Shown: positions 4,947 to 26,362, counted from the stretch's first letter. The stretch: 35,105 nt of DNA from a virus (IMGVR_UViG_3300036851_000804:1-35105), one strand, 5' to 3'. Notes: generated by a model from the sequence alone, not told the origin. Translations and numbers: made by a program.

Positions 4947-6380
4947 CTACTTCTGCTGCTGAGACTCGGTGAGGAACAGCTGCGCGAGCAGGTCGTTCAC
5001 GCCACCGCCGGCGGCCTGCTGCTGGCGCGCGCGGATCACGTAGGGCACCGACTGAGCGGCGAGGCCGAGCGAGGCCGCGTACTGCTGCTGCAGAGCCTGC
5101 TGGTTGGCGATGAAGGCTTCCTCGACGGGGCGGATGCCCGCCGGCAGCCTCGGGACGATCGCGCGCAGGGCTTCGGCCTGCTGCTGCGCCGAGGCTTGGA
5201 GTTGCGACACGTAGGGGCTCATCAACTGCGAGGCCATCGCCTGCCACGCGAGCTGCTCGGGAGTCTCGAGCGCGCCCGTCCCGCCGACGTCCTGGGCGAC
5301 CTGCTGGATGAGGCTGCCGTAGATGGTCGTGATCGCCTCGCCTCGGTTGTAGCCGAGCCCCTCGAGCTGGTCGACGAGCCGGGCCCGGCGCTCGGAGTCG
5401 GCCGCGCTCAGGCCGAGATCGACGCCGAACGCCCGCAGGTCGGCCGGCTTATTCTCGTCTCGGCCCATCCCTCGGAAAGCGCCGGTGATGTTCCCGGCCG
5501 CGAGTTGGCCCAAAACCACGCCGCCGATGACCGGATGGCGTGCCAGGAACCGGAGCCCCGGCACGCGCCCGACCGCCCGGCCGGCCCGATACCAGCCCGA
5601 ACGACCGAGCGCAGCCTTCGCAACCGCCTTCGGCGCCGTGGCCCCTGCGGCCTCGGCAGCCGCCTCCGCCGCGGCCTGAACGCCGGCGCGGCCTGCTCCG
5701 GCCGCCGCGGCCTGCTGAGCCGCCAGCCGCGCGGCCGCCTGGCCTTGCGACAGCGCACGCGGAACGGTGCCTCCAACCTCGTAGGGCGCCAGCCGGCCAG
5801 CGAGGGTGCCGGCCCGGGACGCACCCGCCGCCGCCTGCTCGGCCTCGATCGCCCCCGGCAGGATGCGCGAGAGCGCCGAGACGCGCTGAGCCGCCGGCAA
5901 GCCTGCCGCGGCCGCGCGGCCCGCGCCGATCATCCCCGCGCCGATGCCGCCCCCGGCGGCCGCCTCGCCTGCTCCGAGCGCGCCCCGCGCCACGCCGGCG
6001 ACGCGGCCCCCGACCCCGCCCGTCAGAGCTCCGGCCGTGCCGAACGCAAGTTGCTCGGCGAGCGAGCGGTTCTGGATCGCGCCGGGCAGCGCGCCTGCCG
6101 TCCAGCCGAGGGTCGCGGGAAGCGCCGCGAGCGATGCGCCGCCCGTGAGCGGCGCGCCCGCCACGGCGAGGCCCGAGGCGATCGCGCCACCGAGCGTCGC
6201 CCCCCACCGTCCCCAAAATCCGGGCTTGCGGCGCGCCTCGCGGTCTCGCGTTGCGGCCATGAGCTCGGCGGCGAGCTGCCCTTGCGGGTTCATGTACAGG
6301 CTCGCGGCGTCGCCGCCCATGCCGGGGATCCGGCCGAGGCCCGTGCGCTGCGCCATCGCGGGAACCCACTCGTCGGCCAT
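4947..6380 (-). CDS. Ala/Gly-rich virion protein, candidate ejection protein
   Basis: A 477-residue protein. Residues about 45-95 form a long Gly/Ala-rich hydrophobic, glycine-zipper-like region (WGATLGGAIASGLAVAG...), followed by an Ala-rich helical middle and a Gln/Ala-rich C-terminus ending in QQQK. Such membrane-active segments are usual in podovirus proteins that form the trans-envelope channel. The ATG at 6380 (MADEWVPAM) is two bases after the upstream stop; the longer reading frame to 7199 is a shadow of that gene. Role inferred from composition and order. Confidence 0.65.
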   Translation of the reverse strand: MADEWVPAMAQRTGLGRIPGMGGDAASLYMNPQGQLAAELMAATRDREARRKPGFWGRWGATLGGAIASGLAVAGAPLTGGASLAALPATLGWTAGALPGAIQNRSLAEQLAFGTAGALTGGVGGRVAGVARGALGAGEAAAGGGIGAGMIGAGRAAAAGLPAAQRVSALSRILPGAIEAEQAAAGASRAGTLAGRLAPYEVGGTVPRALSQGQAAARLAAQQAAAAGAGRAGVQAAAEAAAEAAGATAPKAVAKAALGRSGWYRAGRAVGRVPGLRFLARHPVIGGVVLGQLAAGNITGAFRGMGRDENKPADLRAFGVDLGLSAADSERRARLVDQLEGLGYNRGEAITTIYGSLIQQVAQDVGGTGALETPEQLAWQAMASQLMSPYVSQLQASAQQQAEALRAIVPRLPAGIRPVEEAFIANQQALQQQYAASLGLAAQSVPYVIRARQQQAAGGGVNDLLAQLFLTESQQQK

Positions 6381-15271: not shown

Positions 15272-15697
15272 CTACATCTTCTGGACGTAGACGTCCACCA
15301 AGCTCGAGGCCGCCGCGGCGATGGCTACGCCGGTCACCTGGCCGATTGCGGTGGCGACCGAGGTGAACGTCGCGACGGAGCCGGCGGTCGTCCCCGAGCG
15401 CTGCACGAGTGCGTTCGCGGCGATCGCACCTTCGGCCTTCACCGACTTCACGACCCCGCGGGTAGCGATGGGTCCGACTTCACCGGCGGGAATGTCCTCG
15501 AGGGCGACGCCGATGACGAGCCGCGGCTCAACCGTCGTGGTCGCCTTGAGGATCTTGCCGGCCGTGTCGATGGAGACGACCATGCCCTTGTCGATCTGCG
15601 TCGACGTCTCCGCCGACTCGTAGAGCTCGTAGTCCAGCCCGGAGAACTTGTCGAGCCCGAAGGCACCCTCCGGGTTCGCGATCTGCGTGGTGGGCAT
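15272..15697 (-). CDS. Capsid decoration / stabilising protein (DUF2190-like)
   Basis: A 141-residue protein with small beta-barrel pattern: VVSIDTAGKILKATTTVEPRLVIGVALEDIPAGEVGPIATRG is typical of DUF2190-type capsid cement proteins. It sits immediately after the major capsid gene in transcription order, where decoration proteins usually are. Confidence 0.65.
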   Translation of the reverse strand: MPTTQIANPEGAFGLDKFSGLDYELYESAETSTQIDKGMVVSIDTAGKILKATTTVEPRLVIGVALEDIPAGEVGPIATRGVVKSVKAEGAIAANALVQRSGTTAGSVATFTSVATAIGQVTGVAIAAAASSLVDVYVQKM

Positions 15698-15716: not shown

Positions 15717-16682
15717 CTACGCCTGAATGTTGGTGAACTTCACCTGTCTCGCGGCGTTGGTGAGCACGAGGTTGCCCGCCCACAGCAGCTTCGCCACCAT
15801 CGCGTCCTGGTTCACGGGGATCTGGAAGTCCTCCACGTAGAAGTCGGCGCGCGGCGACACGCAGAAGGACAGGTAGTCCTCGTTCAGCATGAACAGGTGG
15901 TTCGCCGGCACGTGCGAGTCCACCACCCACGGCACGCCGTTGAACAGCAGGTTCGTGAACCCGGCCTGCGCGAGCTGCTCGTCGTGGCCGGCCGGCTCCG
16001 ACGGGAAGCGCTGGCCGGAGGTGTTCAGGTTCCAGTAGATGTCGTACACGCCCTGCGTGGAAACCTGGATCGTCGGGTGCCGCCCGCCCTCCGACCCCGC
16101 ACCGAACTTCGCCTGCAGCTTCGACAGCGTGATCCCCGAGCCGCCGGTGTAGGCGGTGGTGTCCACCTGGGACTTCCACCAGGTGTCGGTCGAGCGCGTG
16201 ATGCCGGCGTAGCTGGCCAGGACGGTCGTGTCGTCCACGGCCCCCTTGAAGCCGTCGAGCTTCTTCGTGTTGGTCGTGCCGTCGGAGAACAGCCCGTCGC
16301 CCAAGATGTCGGCGAGCTCCATCTGCGCCTGCGCGAAATACTGCTTGATGAAGTTCGCGATCGCGATGGGCTGGTCGGTCTTGATGAGCGTCAGCCCGTC
16401 CACCGTCACGGGGACGTACGCCTGCTTCCAGTCCCACACGCCGTTCTTCACGGCGTCGGTGGGAGTCGTGTCGAGCAAGTCGAGCCCGGTGTACCAGCCG
16501 CCGGCCGCCATCTTCGCGTACATGAGCGGCGCCTCGATCTGCGTGCCGCCCTGAACGAGCTTCTTGTTCGCGCGGGTGAGCCGGAAGAAGATCAGGTTCG
16601 ACTTGTAGATGTTGTCGGTTATTTGCGGCAGGATGTAGCGGCGCGCGATGCTCGTCACTACGTTCGTCCCGATGGCAGCCAT
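15717..16682 (-). CDS. Major capsid protein
   Basis: A 321-residue protein. The N-terminus (VVTSIARRYILPQITDNIYKSN), a Gly/Trp-rich E-loop region at about 45-70 and a C-terminal domain with 'NLLFNGVPWVVDSHVPANHLFMLNEDYL' (about 240-275) match HK97-fold major capsid proteins of tailed phages. Gene order scaffold, capsid, decoration supports this. The fold is inferred from pattern and context. Confidence 0.88.
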   Translation of the reverse strand: MAAIGTNVVTSIARRYILPQITDNIYKSNLIFFRLTRANKKLVQGGTQIEAPLMYAKMAAGGWYTGLDLLDTTPTDAVKNGVWDWKQAYVPVTVDGLTLIKTDQPIAIANFIKQYFAQAQMELADILGDGLFSDGTTNTKKLDGFKGAVDDTTVLASYAGITRSTDTWWKSQVDTTAYTGGSGITLSKLQAKFGAGSEGGRHPTIQVSTQGVYDIYWNLNTSGQRFPSEPAGHDEQLAQAGFTNLLFNGVPWVVDSHVPANHLFMLNEDYLSFCVSPRADFYVEDFQIPVNQDAMVAKLLWAGNLVLTNAARQVKFTNIQA

Positions 16683-16706: not shown

Positions 16707-17603
16707 TTACTCCCCGCGCATCGCCTGCTCGAGCTCGGCCAGGATCGCAGCGTCGATTTCCGCTTCGGAGCGGGGGGCCGAGGGCGTGCGCGGGACGGAG
16801 CCCGACGACCCGGAGAGCTTCGACGCCTTGCGTTGTCTGCGCTGCGATTCCTCGTGAAGCTTCATGCGGCGCTCGACCTCGCGCTCGCGGAACTCGGGCA
16901 TCGACAGGTAGGCGACCTCGAGCGCCTCCTCGGTGCCACGGATTCGGTCCCCGCCCAGCCGGGCGACGAAGGACGGCAGGATGCGCAGCTGCCCGAGCGC
17001 GTCCTGGACCTTGAGCACGTCTGCCTCGGCGAGCGAGTAGCGCGCCGCGAAGGTGCGCGACGCCTGCTCGATCGCGCCGAGCGCCTGAGCTCGCTCCTCC
17101 TCCATCGTGCGGCTGCGAAGCGTGCCGATCTCGCCGCGGAGCGCCTCGAGCTCGCGGCGCACGGCCGGGTCGAGCTCGTCCTCGTCCGACGCTCGAGCAG
17201 CAGCCGGGCTGGCCGCGCTGGCCTCGGGCGGCTGCTGCTCGAGCGGGACGATCTGCGCGCGGCCCTCAAGGACCGCGCTGATCGCGGCGACGTGCTGCGG
17301 GTTCGCCCGCGCCCATTCGTGGAACTCGAGGATCGCGAGCGCGTCACCCCGCGGGATCCGCCGTCCCTCGAACTCGAACTCCGCCTCGGGCGGCGCCGCG
17401 CCGGGCTCAGCTTCTGCCAGCGCGCCGGGTTCGCCCTCCGTAGGAGCCGGGGCTTCGAGGGGAGCCTGCTCGGGCTCAGCCTCCGGCTCCGGCGCAGGGG
17501 TCTCCTCCGCCGGCGTCGTCTCGGCGCGCAGCGCGTCCTCGATGGCCTCCTGGCGAGACTCGAGATGAGATCCGAGCGCGTCGTTGGTCGATTCGGGCGC
17601 CAT
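16707..17603 (-). CDS. Scaffolding protein
   Basis: A 298-residue acidic protein. Residues 1-75 are low-complexity Glu/Ala/Pro. At about 76-115 FEFEGRRIPRGDALAILEFHEWARAN resembles the start of podovirus-type scaffolds. Residues 140-290 are helical, with a basic C-terminal patch (about 245-262; RRMKLHEESQRRQRKASK) of the kind that binds capsid subunits. It lies immediately upstream of the capsid gene. Confidence 0.8.
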   Translation of the reverse strand: MAPESTNDALGSHLESRQEAIEDALRAETTPAEETPAPEPEAEPEQAPLEAPAPTEGEPGALAEAEPGAAPPEAEFEFEGRRIPRGDALAILEFHEWARANPQHVAAISAVLEGRAQIVPLEQQPPEASAASPAAARASDEDELDPAVRRELEALRGEIGTLRSRTMEEERAQALGAIEQASRTFAARYSLAEADVLKVQDALGQLRILPSFVARLGGDRIRGTEEALEVAYLSMPEFREREVERRMKLHEESQRRQRKASKLSGSSGSVPRTPSAPRSEAEIDAAILAELEQAMRGE

Positions 17604-17605
17604 CG

Positions 17606-17935
17606 CTACCGTCCGCCTCCGACCGCCATCAGGCGCCGCAGCTCATCCACCGGCGGCATGGGCGCCCCGGTCATCACCCCGGGGACGCCCCCGCCTGGCG
17701 GAGATGGGAACACCGGAGCGGGAGCCGGACCGGGCCCTGCCGGCGCGCCCGGGGTAGGAGCTCCCGCTGGCTGCTGCTGCTGAGCTTGAGCCGTCATCCG
17801 CACCCGGGCGAGAACCATCGTCTCGAGCTGCGTCAGGAAGTCGATGTCGGCATCCGGCGCCAGCTTGAGCTGAGCGATCTGCGACACGAGGGCGCCGAGG
17901 CCCTCGGTCATCGTCTGTTGCGATGTCCTCGCCAC
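17606..17935 (-). CDS. Small Pro/Gly-rich protein upstream of scaffold
   Basis: A 109-residue protein with a helical N-terminal half (residues 1-55; LVSQIAQLKLAPDADIDFLTQLE) and a Pro/Gly/Ala linker followed by a short helix (PVDELRRLMA). Two bases separate it from the scaffold gene. Probably a head-assembly protein; no family recognised. Confidence 0.6.
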   Translation of the reverse strand: MARTSQQTMTEGLGALVSQIAQLKLAPDADIDFLTQLETMVLARVRMTAQAQQQQPAGAPTPGAPAGPGPAPAPVFPSPPGGGVPGVMTGAPMPPVDELRRLMAVGGGR

Positions 17936-17940
17936 GGTTC

Positions 17941-18075
17941 CTACGGGTTCAGCTCACGGACCCCGCGAGCGCCCTTCGCCTTCGCGTCGGGGTTCGACCC
18001 GTACTTCCCGTCGGTCGTCTGCCCCTGCTTGACGAGGGGGGCGTCGCCCGTCTTGCCGAGCTTGTCTTTGGGCAT
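17941..18075 (-). CDS. 44-residue basic protein
   Basis: Starts ATG at 18075 with a strong AGGAGG five to six bases upstream. It is Lys/Gly-rich (MPKDKLGKTGDAPLVKQGQ ... SNPDAKAKGARGVREL). The stop is five bases before the next gene. Function unknown; it belongs to a run of very small basic proteins beside the portal gene. Confidence 0.6.
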   Translation of the reverse strand: MPKDKLGKTGDAPLVKQGQTTDGKYGSNPDAKAKGARGVRELNP

Positions 18076-18084
18076 CTCCGCCTC

Positions 18085-18141
18085 CTAGTACCGGCGACCG
18101 CGACGGCCGCGCCGCCGGCCCTTCCGATGTCCGCCTCGCAT
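18085..18141 (-). CDS. 18-residue arginine-rich peptide
   Basis: Encodes MRGGHRKGRRRGRRGRRY: nine Arg plus Lys and His in 18 residues. An AAGGGGG stretch about six bases upstream could be its ribosome site. It follows two RNA hairpins and ends about ten bases before the next start. The composition is protamine-like. Too short for certainty, but a second similar peptide at 18205 supports it. Confidence 0.45.
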   Translation of the reverse strand: MRGGHRKGRRRGRRGRRY

Positions 18142-18158
18142 TTCGGCCCCCTTTGCGA

Positions 18159-18203
18159 CCGCGGGCTTGGCCGGCCCGCGGATGGAGCGCGCTTTCGCGC
18201 GCT
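18159..18203 (-). other. Two tandem RNA hairpins between arginine-rich mini-genes
   Basis: In the transcript (minus strand) the first hairpin has a perfect 7-bp stem AGCGCGC / GCGCGCT closed by a GAAA (GNRA) tetraloop (18186-18203), starting one base after a stop codon. The second has a perfect 8-bp stem CCGCGGGC / GCCCGCGG with a 7-base loop (18159-18181). No U-tract follows, so a standard intrinsic terminator is unlikely. An mRNA processing, stability or attenuation element between portal and head genes is possible. Confidence 0.6.
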
Positions 18204-18204
18204 G

Positions 18205-18255
18205 CTACTTCCGCCTGCGGCCTCGACGACCGCCGCGCCGACCGCGCCGCGCCAT
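18205..18255 (-). CDS. 16-residue arginine-rich peptide
   Basis: Encodes MARRGRRGGRRGRRRK, nine Arg in 16 residues. A full AGGAGG lies about nine bases before the ATG at 18255, the best evidence that it is translated. The stop is next to the GAAA-tetraloop hairpin. A DNA-condensing or RNA-binding role is inference from composition. Confidence 0.5.
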   Translation of the reverse strand: MARRGRRGGRRGRRRK

Positions 18256-18333
18256 CTGCCTCGCCTCCTTCCGATCCTCTGGAGCTGTCAAGAGCCGGAC
18301 GCTAGCACCGGCCCGTGCGCTTTTGGTGGGCGT

Positions 18334-18534
18334 CTAGTCGCCTCGCCGGGCGTTGCGCCGTGCGTGGAGGGACTCGGAGAGCTCCTCCTCGCTCATCTCG
18401 TCGTAGCGCTCGTTGTGGCGCGGCGAGATGTGACCATCCAGCGTGCGAATGACCTCATGCTCGGGATGGCGATGCTTGAACCCCCCGCGCGGGTCATCCG
18501 GTGCGACGCCGGGCGCGTCCGATTCGTGCCCCAT
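18334..18534 (-). CDS. Small charged protein after the portal gene
   Basis: A 66-residue His/Glu/Arg-rich protein (GGFKHRHPEHEVIRTLDGH ... EEELSESLHARRNARRGD) with a basic C-terminus. Its ribosome site AGGAGG lies in the last codons of the portal gene. No family recognised. Confidence 0.6.
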   Translation of the reverse strand: MGHESDAPGVAPDDPRGGFKHRHPEHEVIRTLDGHISPRHNERYDEMSEEELSESLHARRNARRGD

Positions 18535-18537
18535 GAC

Positions 18538-20277
18538 CTAGCCTCCTCCCGGGGACTGCGCGCGGCCCGCCCGCTGACGCTTGCCGGGCGGAGACCACAC
18601 GCCTTGCTGGATCTGCTGCGTGATCCGGTCAAGGATCGTCTTGCGGTTCGGGTAGTCATGCGCGTCGAGCAGGGCCTCGCGGTCAATGCCGCCGAGCGCG
18701 TAGAGCATGTCGGCCTCGGCAGCTCGCGCCTGGCGCGAGGTCGGCAGGGCCGAGCCTGCCTGGACCCACAGCGAGAACTTCATCGGCATCAGCTCGCCGT
18801 CCTCGGCCGGCATGTAGAAGTGCCGGGATTTGAGCAGCATCGCCGACTGCTCGCCCTGCGGCCCGGTGATCGAGACCATCCGCGGCGCTGTGTAGTTCTC
18901 CACGATCAGCGACGCGGCGAGCTGGCCCGAGTCGTTGAGGCTCAACTCGAGGTTCCGAAGTGCGTTGCGCACACGCACGAAACCGCCCTCCTGCGAGGCG
19001 TCCAGCACCCCGCGCGCCGTGCGAGCAGGCGGAGTCACCCCTCGCGAGATCGCCGACAGGCCCGAGACTCGCTCCATCTCGCCGATGTAGAAGCGGATCA
19101 GGTCCATGACGTAAGTGGGGATCTGCGGCGGCTCCATCCACTTCGCCTCGGCGCCTGAGTTCTTCTCGAGTCGCACGCCCGGCCGGTTCACGATCTTCGT
19201 GCGAGAGATCCCGGCGCGCTTGTCCTCCAGGAACACGGGGTTGCCGGTCAGCTCCGCGTTGTGCTGGACGGCTGCGAGCAGGCGGTTTATGGACATCTGC
19301 AGCGGGGTCAGGTGCTCCACCAGCGCGACGCCCCAAAAGTCGCCGATGTCGGTCGGCACGTAGCGGGTGTAGGGGTGGCGCCCGTGTCCGAAAATCTCGT
19401 CGGCATACGCCCCGAACAGAAGCCGGTTGCCGGCGATCAGCCGGACCCGCCAGCGATCCTCGACGTACTCCTCGTCGGCCTCGATGTAGACCTGGGACTC
19501 GCGCGTCCAGCATTCGTAGATGCTGACGCCCTGCGTGATGGCGCCGCTCACCCGGTCGGACGCGCCGGGCAGGCCGAAGCGGGGCGGGGCGCCCGAGATG
19601 CCGCCGGGGTTCGCCATCGGGCCTTTTCCATAGGCGTTTGGGTCATCGCGCCGAGCAAGCGAGCTCGATTCGTCGGTCCCCTCGATCTCGGAGAGCACGA
19701 TGTCGGCGCCGGGGAACTTGCGCTCGAGCTCCTCGATCGAGATGGTGCGGGCCTCGATGAAGAAGTTGGCGTCCTCGATGTTCGAGGCCATCGGGTCGGG
19801 ATAGAAGGTGAACGGGTCGATCCGCACCGTGCGCGCGTCGCCGAGGCCGTCCTCGAGCCCGGATTCCCACACGCTTTTCAGGAAGCCGGTGCCGTAGAGC
19901 CACCCGTCCCACAGCATCTTCTCGATCTCGGATGTCGTCTTGCGCAACTGCCAGTTCGACTCGAGCACCTTCTCCAAATCGCGCGCGACCTCGGAAACCG
20001 TGTCGTAGAACGGCGAATGAGGATCCGCAGCGGCCGAGACCATCAGCATCGGCCGCTGCTCGGTCATCCAAGCGACCAGCGCGGCAATGATGGGGAAAAT
20101 CTCCGATGCCTGCGGCGAGGGCATCCAGGGCTCGCGCGCCGGCGACCACGAGCGGTTGTGCACCATGCGGTAGCTGCGCTGCCAGGCGTCCAGCCGTCGG
20201 TTGCGCTCCTGCTTCGCCCAGCCGAACAGGCGGCGCAGGTAGCCAACGACGTCGAGCTCGGCGGCGGTGGCGACCAT
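18538..20277 (-). CDS. Portal protein
   Basis: A 579-residue portal, the dodecameric ring through which DNA is packaged and ejected. The N-terminal half (WMTEQRPMLMVSAAADPHSPFYDTVSEVARDLEKVLESNW) and DPFTFYPDPMASNIEDANFFI (about 155-175) are typical of podovirus-type portals; AVQHNAELTGNPVFLEDKRA and the long wing/stem helices at about 410-440 follow. It is placed between terminase and scaffold. Confidence 0.88.
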   Translation of the reverse strand: MVATAAELDVVGYLRRLFGWAKQERNRRLDAWQRSYRMVHNRSWSPAREPWMPSPQASEIFPIIAALVAWMTEQRPMLMVSAAADPHSPFYDTVSEVARDLEKVLESNWQLRKTTSEIEKMLWDGWLYGTGFLKSVWESGLEDGLGDARTVRIDPFTFYPDPMASNIEDANFFIEARTISIEELERKFPGADIVLSEIEGTDESSSLARRDDPNAYGKGPMANPGGISGAPPRFGLPGASDRVSGAITQGVSIYECWTRESQVYIEADEEYVEDRWRVRLIAGNRLLFGAYADEIFGHGRHPYTRYVPTDIGDFWGVALVEHLTPLQMSINRLLAAVQHNAELTGNPVFLEDKRAGISRTKIVNRPGVRLEKNSGAEAKWMEPPQIPTYVMDLIRFYIGEMERVSGLSAISRGVTPPARTARGVLDASQEGGFVRVRNALRNLELSLNDSGQLAASLIVENYTAPRMVSITGPQGEQSAMLLKSRHFYMPAEDGELMPMKFSLWVQAGSALPTSRQARAAEADMLYALGGIDREALLDAHDYPNRKTILDRITQQIQQGVWSPPGKRQRAGRAQSPGGG

Positions 20278-20409
20278 CTACTCGGCCCGCAAAACCGAGC
20301 GCGTCATGCGGCGTCCCGAGCGCGCCGCGGACCGCGGCGTCGCGCTCGGCCTGCCGACTCGCCGTCCCATGCGCGTCGAGATACGCGCGGATACTCTGCG
20401 CGGTGCCAT
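20278..20409 (-). CDS. 43-residue arginine-rich protein
   Basis: Start at 20409 (MAPRRVSARIST) is chosen because AGGAGG lies five bases upstream; the adjacent ATG at 20412 is too close. It has 13 Arg and many Ser/Ala, with a protamine-like look. The stop abuts the portal start. Possibly DNA-binding; no family recognised. Confidence 0.55.
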   Translation of the reverse strand: MAPRRVSARISTRMGRRVGRPSATPRSAARSGRRMTRSVLRAE

Positions 20410-20609
20410 CATCGCCTCCTTGCCTGCCGTCGCCTGCCGCGGCTGCCTTTGCGATCGCGCCATGAGAGGCCCGCCTCCGACATCGCTATCGCCTTCGCCT
20501 GATCCGGGTCCGTCACCTTGTCACCGGATGACGAGTGGAGGCTGCCGCGGCGGAACTCGCCCATCACGCGCCGAACCTTGCGGCGTCCCCGGTCCCGTCG
20601 CGCGGCCAT
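20409..20609 (-). CDS. Basic protein with DUF6496-like core
   Basis: A 66-residue protein. The core VMGEFRRGSLHSSSGDKVTDPDQ...AIAMSEAGLS (about 15-50) matches a short motif recurrent in phages and bacteria (DUF6496: MxEFKxGxLxSGSGxxVxxxxQAxAIAxSEA). It is flanked by Arg-rich arms (MAARRDRGRRKVRR and GSRGRRRQARRR). Function of the family is unknown; DNA or nucleoprotein contact is likely from charge. Confidence 0.65.
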   Translation of the reverse strand: MAARRDRGRRKVRRVMGEFRRGSLHSSSGDKVTDPDQAKAIAMSEAGLSWRDRKGSRGRRRQARRR

Positions 20610-25168: not shown

Positions 25169-26362
25169 CTAGGCGATCCGCACCGGCATCAGGAGATACA
25201 GCGCGGAGCTCGCATCCGAGGCCCAAAGCGTAGGCTTGAGCCCGTCCCGGGCGCCGAACGTGACCGTATCGAGCGGCCCGGCGCCCGTAGCCCCGAGCGC
25301 GGCGAGCATGTAGCCCGGATTGAGGCCGACGACCAGGCCGGCGCCCGACGTCGCCGCGGCGACGTCCGCGGACGCCTCGCCGACGTCCTGCGCGCCGGCG
25401 TGCAGCCGTATCCGGTCGGCCTCGAGCTCGAGGCGCACCGGGGCGCCGGCGGCCGCCATCGGCAGGACCGCCCGAATGCCGGCCTCGAGCTCGCCGGCCC
25501 GCGCCGCGAACCGATGCTCGAGGGCGCCGGCCTCGGGGATCAATTGCCGCCAGTTCGGATACTCACCCTCGATCATCCGCGTCACGAGGCGCCAGCCGGC
25601 GCCGGCGAACGCGAGGCTTGAGCCCTCGGCGCCGGCCTCGAGCTCGATCTGGTCCGTCGGCTCGAGGCGGCCCGCGATCCGCGCGAGTGCCGCGGCGACG
25701 CGGCCCGGTATGACGCGGCGCCCGAAGCCGGCCTGCTCGAGCGCGGCCGGCGTCACGTATTCGAGCGCGAGCCGGTAACCATCCGTCCCGCACAGCGCGA
25801 ACCTATGGCCCGCTGCATCGGCCTCGAGCTCGAGCAGAAGGCCCGTCAGAATCGGCCTCGCCTCATCGTGCGACGCCGCGACGCTAACGCGCTCGAGGGC
25901 GCCAGTGAGCTCGAGGGCGCCGAACGTCGCCGCACGCGGGATCATCCCTACCGGCGCCGGCATATCCTCGAGGGCGCCGGCCCGTAGCCCAGTCGCGACG
26001 CCGGCGGCCCGAACCGTGAGCGCGTTGGCGCCGCTTGCCTCGAGCTCGAGCTCAACGTCGGCGCCGGCCTTGCGCGGCCCGCGGCCGCGAATGAGCTCCG
26101 CGAGCACTTTGTACGGGACCGCAACCGCGCCGGCGCGCCGAACGCCGGCCCCGATGGTGATACTGCCCGCCAGCTCGAGATCCGTCCCGCGGATCGTCAG
26201 GCGTGAGCCCGCCGCCTCGAGCGCGACGCATCCGAGGGCCGGCAGGCTCGAGCGCGTACCGATGCACGGCGCGAGGCGCCGCAGGGCGCCCGCGAGCTCC
26301 TTCCTGCTAACGGTAGCCTCGAGGCCGGCGGCCTGGAGGGCCGATGCTGCGATAGCGCTCAC
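25169..26362 (-). CDS. dnaN: DNA polymerase III beta sliding clamp
   Basis: A 397-residue clamp of typical family length. Three repeated domains are recognisable. Family motifs include ILTGLLLELE, CGTDGYRLALEYV (about 190), MIEGEYPNWRQLIP (about 262-276; canonical form IDGRFPDYRRVLP) and the C-terminus LYLLMPVRI (canonical YVVMPMRL). It should tether the polymerase and other clamp-binding proteins to DNA. It is unusually rich in Leu-Glu-Ala-Gly and poor in Lys, following the CTCGAG/GCC repeats in its DNA. GTG start with AGGAGAGG upstream. No phage polymerase accompanies it. Confidence 0.93.
   Translation of the reverse strand: MSAIAASALQAAGLEATVSRKELAGALRRLAPCIGTRSSLPALGCVALEAAGSRLTIRGTDLELAGSITIGAGVRRAGAVAVPYKVLAELIRGRGPRKAGADVELELEASGANALTVRAAGVATGLRAGALEDMPAPVGMIPRAATFGALELTGALERVSVAASHDEARPILTGLLLELEADAAGHRFALCGTDGYRLALEYVTPAALEQAGFGRRVIPGRVAAALARIAGRLEPTDQIELEAGAEGSSLAFAGAGWRLVTRMIEGEYPNWRQLIPEAGALEHRFAARAGELEAGIRAVLPMAAAGAPVRLELEADRIRLHAGAQDVGEASADVAAATSGAGLVVGLNPGYMLAALGATGAGPLDTVTFGARDGLKPTLWASDASSALYLLMPVRIA

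Follow-up and report, generated by a model that had tools for sequence, protein, structure and literature searches.

A family of ultra-short arginine-rich genes predicted in the head module of tailed phages

Comparison of a virus record from IMG/VR of 35,105 bases and ~70% GC (hereafter the window, i.e. the whole stretch of DNA that was analysed) with related head modules points to a family of ultra-short structural-module genes, located between the portal and the scaffold or capsid genes in several deep tailed-phage lineages and encoding peptides of 11–26 amino acids, mostly 11–16, with the consensus MARR.. and otherwise R, K, H and G only. Judged from sequence, the family is real and selected at the amino-acid level, and its ribosome site is among the strongest of the module. 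The function of the peptide is most likely nucleic-acid-binding and protamine-like, in head assembly or packaging.

The head module of the window and its micro-genes

The minus strand of the window encodes, in this order, TerL, a 47-aa zinc-ribbon protein, a 135-aa protein, a DUF6496-like 66-aa ORF, a 43-aa ORF and the portal protein, followed by w66, p16, p18, w44, w109, a probable scaffold and the major capsid protein (MCP) (Table 1). The preliminary description had placed five of these ORFs (p16, p18, w44 and the 43-aa and 66-aa ORFs) in a single cluster around the portal gene. All five are present on the minus strand with the sizes given there when the coordinates are recomputed, the 43-aa ORF being 44 aa long if the earlier of its two ATGs is the start, and they share strand and order with the TerL–portal–scaffold–MCP genes. 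They do not form one unit, because neither of the two Arg-rich ORFs preceding the portal is conserved at that position, which rules out the cluster as proposed. For the 43-aa ORF no relative was found among the related loci, and the 66-aa ORF has one close viral relative only, in another context. The latter resembles DUF6496 (PF20106), but it scores 21.9 bits against a gathering cut-off of 24.0 and lies outside the conserved micro-gene unit. Both ORFs may be real genes, and both are probably unrelated to that unit. The part of the earlier grouping that stands is p18 and w44, which fit the syntenic module of p16. The conserved unit is located downstream of the portal and consists of w66, p16, p18, w44 and w109, with w109 as the conserved downstream boundary of the micro-gene interval. 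ORFs similar to w66 also occur in loci L015, L031 and L083, and homologues of w44 were detected in 24 loci by tblastn.

Two further genes of the minus strand were noted. The gene after the MCP (15272-15697) shows weak matches to head decoration and scaffolding PHROGs (phrog_122, phrog_673), and a DnaN-like sliding clamp is encoded at 25169-26362 of this 35 kb phage contig (phrog_947, E 1e-50; three Pfam DNA_pol3_beta domains).

Table 1. Coordinates of the features discussed, in the window unless another locus is named
Feature	Coordinates	Strand	Properties and basis
TerL	22726-21125	-	
DUF6496-like ORF, 66 aa, Arg arms	20409..20609	-	probably outside the conserved unit
Arg-rich ORF, 43 aa, 13 Arg	20278..20409	-	overlaps stop of 66-aa ORF, abuts portal start
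Portal protein, P22-like	18538..20277	-	PF16510, E 3e-24; phrog_156
w66, 66 aa, acidic, first gene 3' of portal	18334..18534	-	TLDGH motif; aligned to L002
Shine-Dalgarno AAGGAGG of p16	18264..18270	-	duplex energy -15.7 kcal/mol
p16, micro-gene, MARRGRRGGRRGRRRK	18205..18255 (stop included)	-	16 aa, charge +10, MARR family
Shine-Dalgarno-like AAAGGGGG of p18	18147..18154	-	duplex energy -11.2 kcal/mol
p18, second micro-gene, MRGGHRKGRRRGRRGRRY	18085..18141	-	18 aa, charge +10
w44, 44 aa, K/G-rich	17941..18075	-	small conserved family, xKQGQT/MRQGHT..YGxxP..DL; also aligned to L002
w109, Pro-rich, ends MPPVDELRRL	17606..17935	-	homologues in 79 loci; alignment
Probable scaffold, 298 aa, net charge -25	16707..17603	-	position between w109 and MCP
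Major capsid protein	15717..16682	-	phrog_9953, E 1e-59
Lys-rich ORF, 22 aa, Tunturiibacter phage (L249, PP887698)	5736-5804		
Lys-rich ORF, 22 aa, Tunturiibacter phage (L311)	5167-5235		

A micro-ORF was given a fixed definition: 10–24 aa, no less than 42% R+K and 70% RKHGS, and a Shine-Dalgarno (SD) site. In the whole 35 kb, either strand included, p16 and p18 alone fit it. At least one such ORF appeared in 0.1% of the dinucleotide shuffles of the portal–w109 gap, and two appeared in none of 3000. The full ribosome site described earlier for p16 is confirmed, with AAGGAGG 8 nt before the ATG, and both micro-genes have a strong SD at 4–10 nt. Furthermore, p16 is shorter than the upper bound of 26 aa, consists almost exclusively of R, K, H and G after MA, lacks acidic residues and lies between the portal and the scaffold and MCP genes on the same strand. 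The assignment of p16 and p18 is based on position, motif and SD, their sequence being of low complexity. A second basic micro-ORF ending in RY is found at the same place as p18 in six loci (L028, L029, L054, L024, L093 and L097), and the apparent likeness of p18 to such second micro-ORFs is one of position and composition only. A structured RNA in the interval was considered and dropped, because the predicted folding is no better than that of shuffles (z -0.04) and the interval has no Rfam match.

Occurrence of the micro-genes in related and distant phages

Approximately 110 related loci were collected by portal or MCP, including head modules with portals 34–54% identical to that of the window. 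In 54 non-redundant portal–w109 gaps, micro-ORFs are present in 25, amounting to 28 in all; none is found antisense, and shuffles yield 0.04 on average. Look-alike peptides such as MARRGRKHGRRGRK, MARRGKRHSKRGHKR, MARRRGRHHKRK and MARRGRKHHRK occur across phages of 48–70% GC. In nearly all micro-ORFs of the relatives the SD follows the pattern AAGGGGGTG or GGAGGTGA. In many carriers the gap is occupied by two to six consecutive small basic ORFs, after which come w44 and w109 homologues. The window and L031 share the order w66-like ORF, MARR micro-ORF, second basic micro-ORF, w44 and w109, with the MARR micro-ORF at about +280 to +310 from the portal stop; across the relatives this distance varies from about +60 to +1390.

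In the portal tree one large clade holds carriers in 41 of 46 rows and a separate deep clade in 8 of 8, with L131 as a further carrier; because rows L113–L158 were chosen for carrying the peptide, counts that involve them do not represent prevalence. Among the five other rows of the large clade, the peptide of L026 and L063 starts with GTG or TTG, the L065 sequence stops too soon, and variants of the basic micro-ORFs are present in L025 and L067. Presence of the micro-gene follows the portal tree, with 7 changes versus 29 after shuffling. The micro-gene is not universal, because the ~34 portals nearest to that of the window come without it; head function therefore does not require the peptide in general. 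Genes resembling w66 and w44 are retained in those near non-carriers that were inspected, and the portal–w109 gap of non-carriers is devoid of small basic ORFs. The window, with L003 as its nearest row, is an exception within its non-carrier neighbourhood. Two non-carrier relatives have a Gly-rich ORF of ~340 aa directly after the portal gene (L083, 4952-5986; L085, 4937-5968).

The family was also retrieved by two scans of IMG/VR in which the portal was not used. The first pattern, GGTG N4-9 ATGGCNCGTCGN(VRN)7, was run on all of IMG/VR and matched 48 contigs, five of which show the start of a long protein and 43 an ORF of at most 16 aa; all 43 short ORFs adjoin homologues of portal, TerL, MCP or w109. 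The second pattern, AGGAGG N4-10 ATGGCNCGNCGN(VRN)7, added 50 contigs, of which 42 have a short ORF (at most 26 aa). Here a head-module homologue is adjacent by tblastn in 41 of 42, and in the remaining one (L261) a PHROG portal lies 530 bases upstream. Altogether, 86 contigs have a short ORF (L033 included), representing 52 distinct peptides. The micro-ORF lies inside a portal/head gene module in all 86 contigs and is co-directional with it in 85, the exception being L291, where the portal is on the opposite strand at the contig end. Not one of the 1,047 residues of these 86 ORFs is acidic, in spite of a pattern that leaves room for D, E, N and Q. The family is highly basic and disordered in composition (R 48%, K 16%, H 10%, G 17%), with almost no hydrophobic residue. 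Carrier contigs reach 95 kb, and some carriers have portals only 21–32% identical to that of the window or to other query portals. The preliminary description had suggested a search for the same mini-genes beside portals in related genomes, and they do recur there: across many lineages both the reading frame and the amino acids are conserved and the SD is very strong.

Some of these loci deserve mention by themselves. The peptide MARRGRKHGRRGRK is unchanged in L028, L029 and L054 and in L276 and L289, despite very distant packaging genes (the TerL of L276/L289 is 29% identical to that of the window), which may reflect strong constraint, convergence or transfer. In L153 a portal-looking protein of 744 aa starts with MARRGGKRGRKSRES, which resembles a micro-peptide as an N-terminal arm. 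In L141 a TTG-started 64-aa frame, at +988 to +1180 from the portal stop, joins a small phage domain beginning MPFKSENQRRYLWARHP.. in frame to MARRRGRHGGRHKRK and could be a fusion or a longer version of the micro-gene; the similar ORF of L059 matches phrog_1375 weakly.

As a control, the first pattern was run on 257 Gb of bacterial genomes, giving 86 matches and one such gene only (L233). This is a phage locus with the micro-gene beside a portal, on a contig binned in an Acidimicrobiaceae MAG; of 296 searched genomes of the class of that MAG, it alone matched. The binning is the sole hint of a host, which leaves the earlier label 'actinophage' unproven, and the label 'short-tailed' rests on the P22-like portal.

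Among the isolates examined no cultured carrier of the MARR form was found. The interval from portal to scaffold lacks a micro-gene in SV21, DS1 and Shocker, and Mx8, Mx9, BUCT555, ppBjS10J-1, ctMlz233 and Mwe-JY13 have tightly packed modules with no micro-gene among the translated annotated small ORFs. The cultured Tunturiibacter phages Tunturi_1 and Tunturi_2 contain, in the corresponding slot downstream of the portal, an unannotated ORF with AGGAGG for the Lys-rich peptide MAKESKKEMKKEELKKKKSGKK. It is an analogue and not a family member, because it contains Glu. GenBank entries MW202753 and MW202825 contain MARAKRKGRKARK and MARKARKTRKGRK, likewise unannotated. Annotation misses micro-genes because they are below the usual length limits of gene callers. 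A PHROG search with a 30-aa concatenation of two family peptides gave no match. In the literature searched, outside of which lies the paper on small phage genes by Fremin et al. (2022), no description of Arg-rich small phage virion proteins or phage protamines was found.

Ribosome sites and selection on the peptide

The predicted energy of the anti-SD duplex has a median of -16.4 kcal/mol for basic micro-ORFs taken with no SD criterion, whereas the other ATG ORFs of equal size that these gaps contain have -3.7 and random positions -3.6 (p 3e-11). Weak sites are seen in 11 basic ORFs, mostly second micro-ORFs or internal starts. The values for MCP and portal starts are -8.4 and -6.5 kcal/mol, respectively, so that by predicted duplex energy the micro-gene SD is about twice as strong, the micro-gene set in this comparison being SD-selected. 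High expression of the micro-genes is inferred from the strength of these sites.

Selection was assessed in 17 sister pairs, taken for the most part from the portal tree and irrespective of how similar their peptides are; five of these are identical and uninformative. The pairs differ by 40 synonymous and 20 nonsynonymous codon changes, whereas random stop-avoiding substitutions give 15.6 ± 3.6 synonymous changes, with a maximum of 29 among 3000. By codon position the differences number 17, 18 and 52. In a peptide-matched set, which is biased by choice, 38 synonymous changes are found against 8 nonsynonymous, with 12.0 synonymous expected. Such a codon pattern indicates a peptide that is translated and retained. 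Purifying selection is thus apparent at the level of the family, the window itself having no close carrier for comparison. Since evolution preserves the amino-acid sequence, the micro-gene is a real gene. Absence of conservation of the frames and ribosome sites had been named beforehand as a ground for abandoning the proposal; both are conserved in the family, so that at the level of sequence the proposal is not refuted.

Possible functions of the micro-peptide

The Arg-rich composition fits the protamine-like or RNA-binding role proposed earlier. In the preferred reading the peptide would be an unstructured polycation, produced late and abundantly, which would bind the DNA entering the head, or DNA or RNA together with the acidic scaffold during procapsid assembly, and would lower electrostatic repulsion, as protamines and the adenovirus peptide mu do. 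The acidic scaffold, with a net charge of about -15 to -45, could keep the peptides inside the procapsid up to its own displacement by DNA. This retention step lacks the support of a correlation, because the scaffolds of carriers are no more acidic than those of non-carriers (median -23.5 with and -35 without the micro-gene), and a charge balance with the scaffold was rejected for that reason. That the family is a conserved ultra-short head-module gene family with such a late, abundant nucleic-acid-binding polycation as its product is an evenly balanced proposition. A broader nucleic-acid role of the peptide in the head is rated at or slightly below that level. The more specific proposal that several deep tailed-phage lineages encode their own protamines as free-standing 11–20-codon genes in the head module, packaged with the DNA or loading it, is tentative and somewhat less probable than its opposite. 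Protamine-like head filling or stability ranks first, assembly with the acidic scaffold second and an RNA- or host-directed action third.

The adenovirus peptide mu has 19 aa, is present at 100–300 copies per virion and helps to condense the genome (PMC7998265), and peptides of such size can thus serve the core of a dsDNA virus. Like the phage peptide, the adenovirus core peptide X/mu (as well as protein VII) represents an Arg/His-rich polycation of a dsDNA virus, of ~19 aa in the case of mu. However, mu arises by cleavage of a precursor and is packaged together with an animal-virus genome, whereas the phage peptide is the direct product of an 11–26-codon gene; no homology is claimed.

Among phages, the J protein of phiX174 and other Microviridae is a tiny basic head-module protein that binds the packaged DNA. 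It differs from the micro-peptide in its greater size, its binding to ssDNA and the coat protein and its aromatic C-terminus, and the micro-peptide phages, unlike phiX174, have the terminase–portal–scaffold–MCP module of tailed phages. The internal head proteins IPI-III of T4 are small, basic and put into a tailed-phage procapsid before DNA entry. In contrast to the micro-peptides they are far longer than 26 aa and have a capsid-targeting sequence cut by a protease, an element for which 11–26 aa leave no room. Motor-packaged dsDNA phages usually need no condensing peptide, which counts against a protamine role, as do the sister clades that manage without the peptide and a scaffold charge that does not vary with its presence.

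Instead, the peptide could be an assembly factor that leaves before the virion is complete, a polycation with the acidic scaffold, the portal or RNA as its partner, which would assist in nucleating procapsids or in setting the portal vertex. The location of the micro-genes of carriers between portal and scaffold genes, the strongly acidic scaffolds and the strong SD are in line with this. However, the clades lacking the peptide keep the portal–w109–scaffold–MCP module with scaffolds at least as acidic, and the explanation is considered unlikely, though a serious one. It is rather improbable that the product is a late host- or RNA-directed peptide of the arginine-rich-motif type, which would bind host RNA, ribosomes or a phage transcript and shift late expression. 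High predicted expression and a composition like that of arginine-rich RNA-binding motifs would suit such an activity, but not the strict head-module placement in every lineage found, nor the lack of acidic and near-lack of hydrophobic residues for a specific protein partner.

Translation itself, by way of the strong SD and the Arg codons, might regulate or couple the neighbouring genes, the peptide being irrelevant. Such a cis-acting role, for which the exceptionally strong SD sites and the known minigenes of phage lambda can be adduced, predicts no selection on the peptide, whereas amino acids are kept while codons change, both in the sister pairs (40 synonymous changes versus 15.6 expected) and in the peptide-matched sets (38 versus 12.0). 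Moreover, the Arg codons vary, the window shows neither an unusual RNA fold nor an Rfam match, and the distance from the portal stop is variable, which renders this explanation very improbable. Finally, chance Arg-rich frames in high-GC DNA, conceivable in a window of ~70% GC as Arg and Gly codons are GC-rich, can practically be dismissed, since the GC content of carriers spans 48% to 70% and their codons include AAG, CAC and CGT, and since position, SD, codon tests and the 28 ORFs observed against 0.04 in shuffles and 0 antisense refute chance for the family, the probability of at least one such ORF in the window alone being 0.001.

For the preferred, protamine-like reading, the family offers a testable case in motor-packaged dsDNA phages, where condensing proteins are thought to be unneeded, and the sister clades with and without the micro-gene constitute a natural experiment. 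A conserved protein gene of 11–16 codons beside portal and head genes means that the head modules of tailed phages hold overlooked genes. If the proposal is true, phage protamine genes of 11–20 codons would be among the shortest conserved protein genes known.
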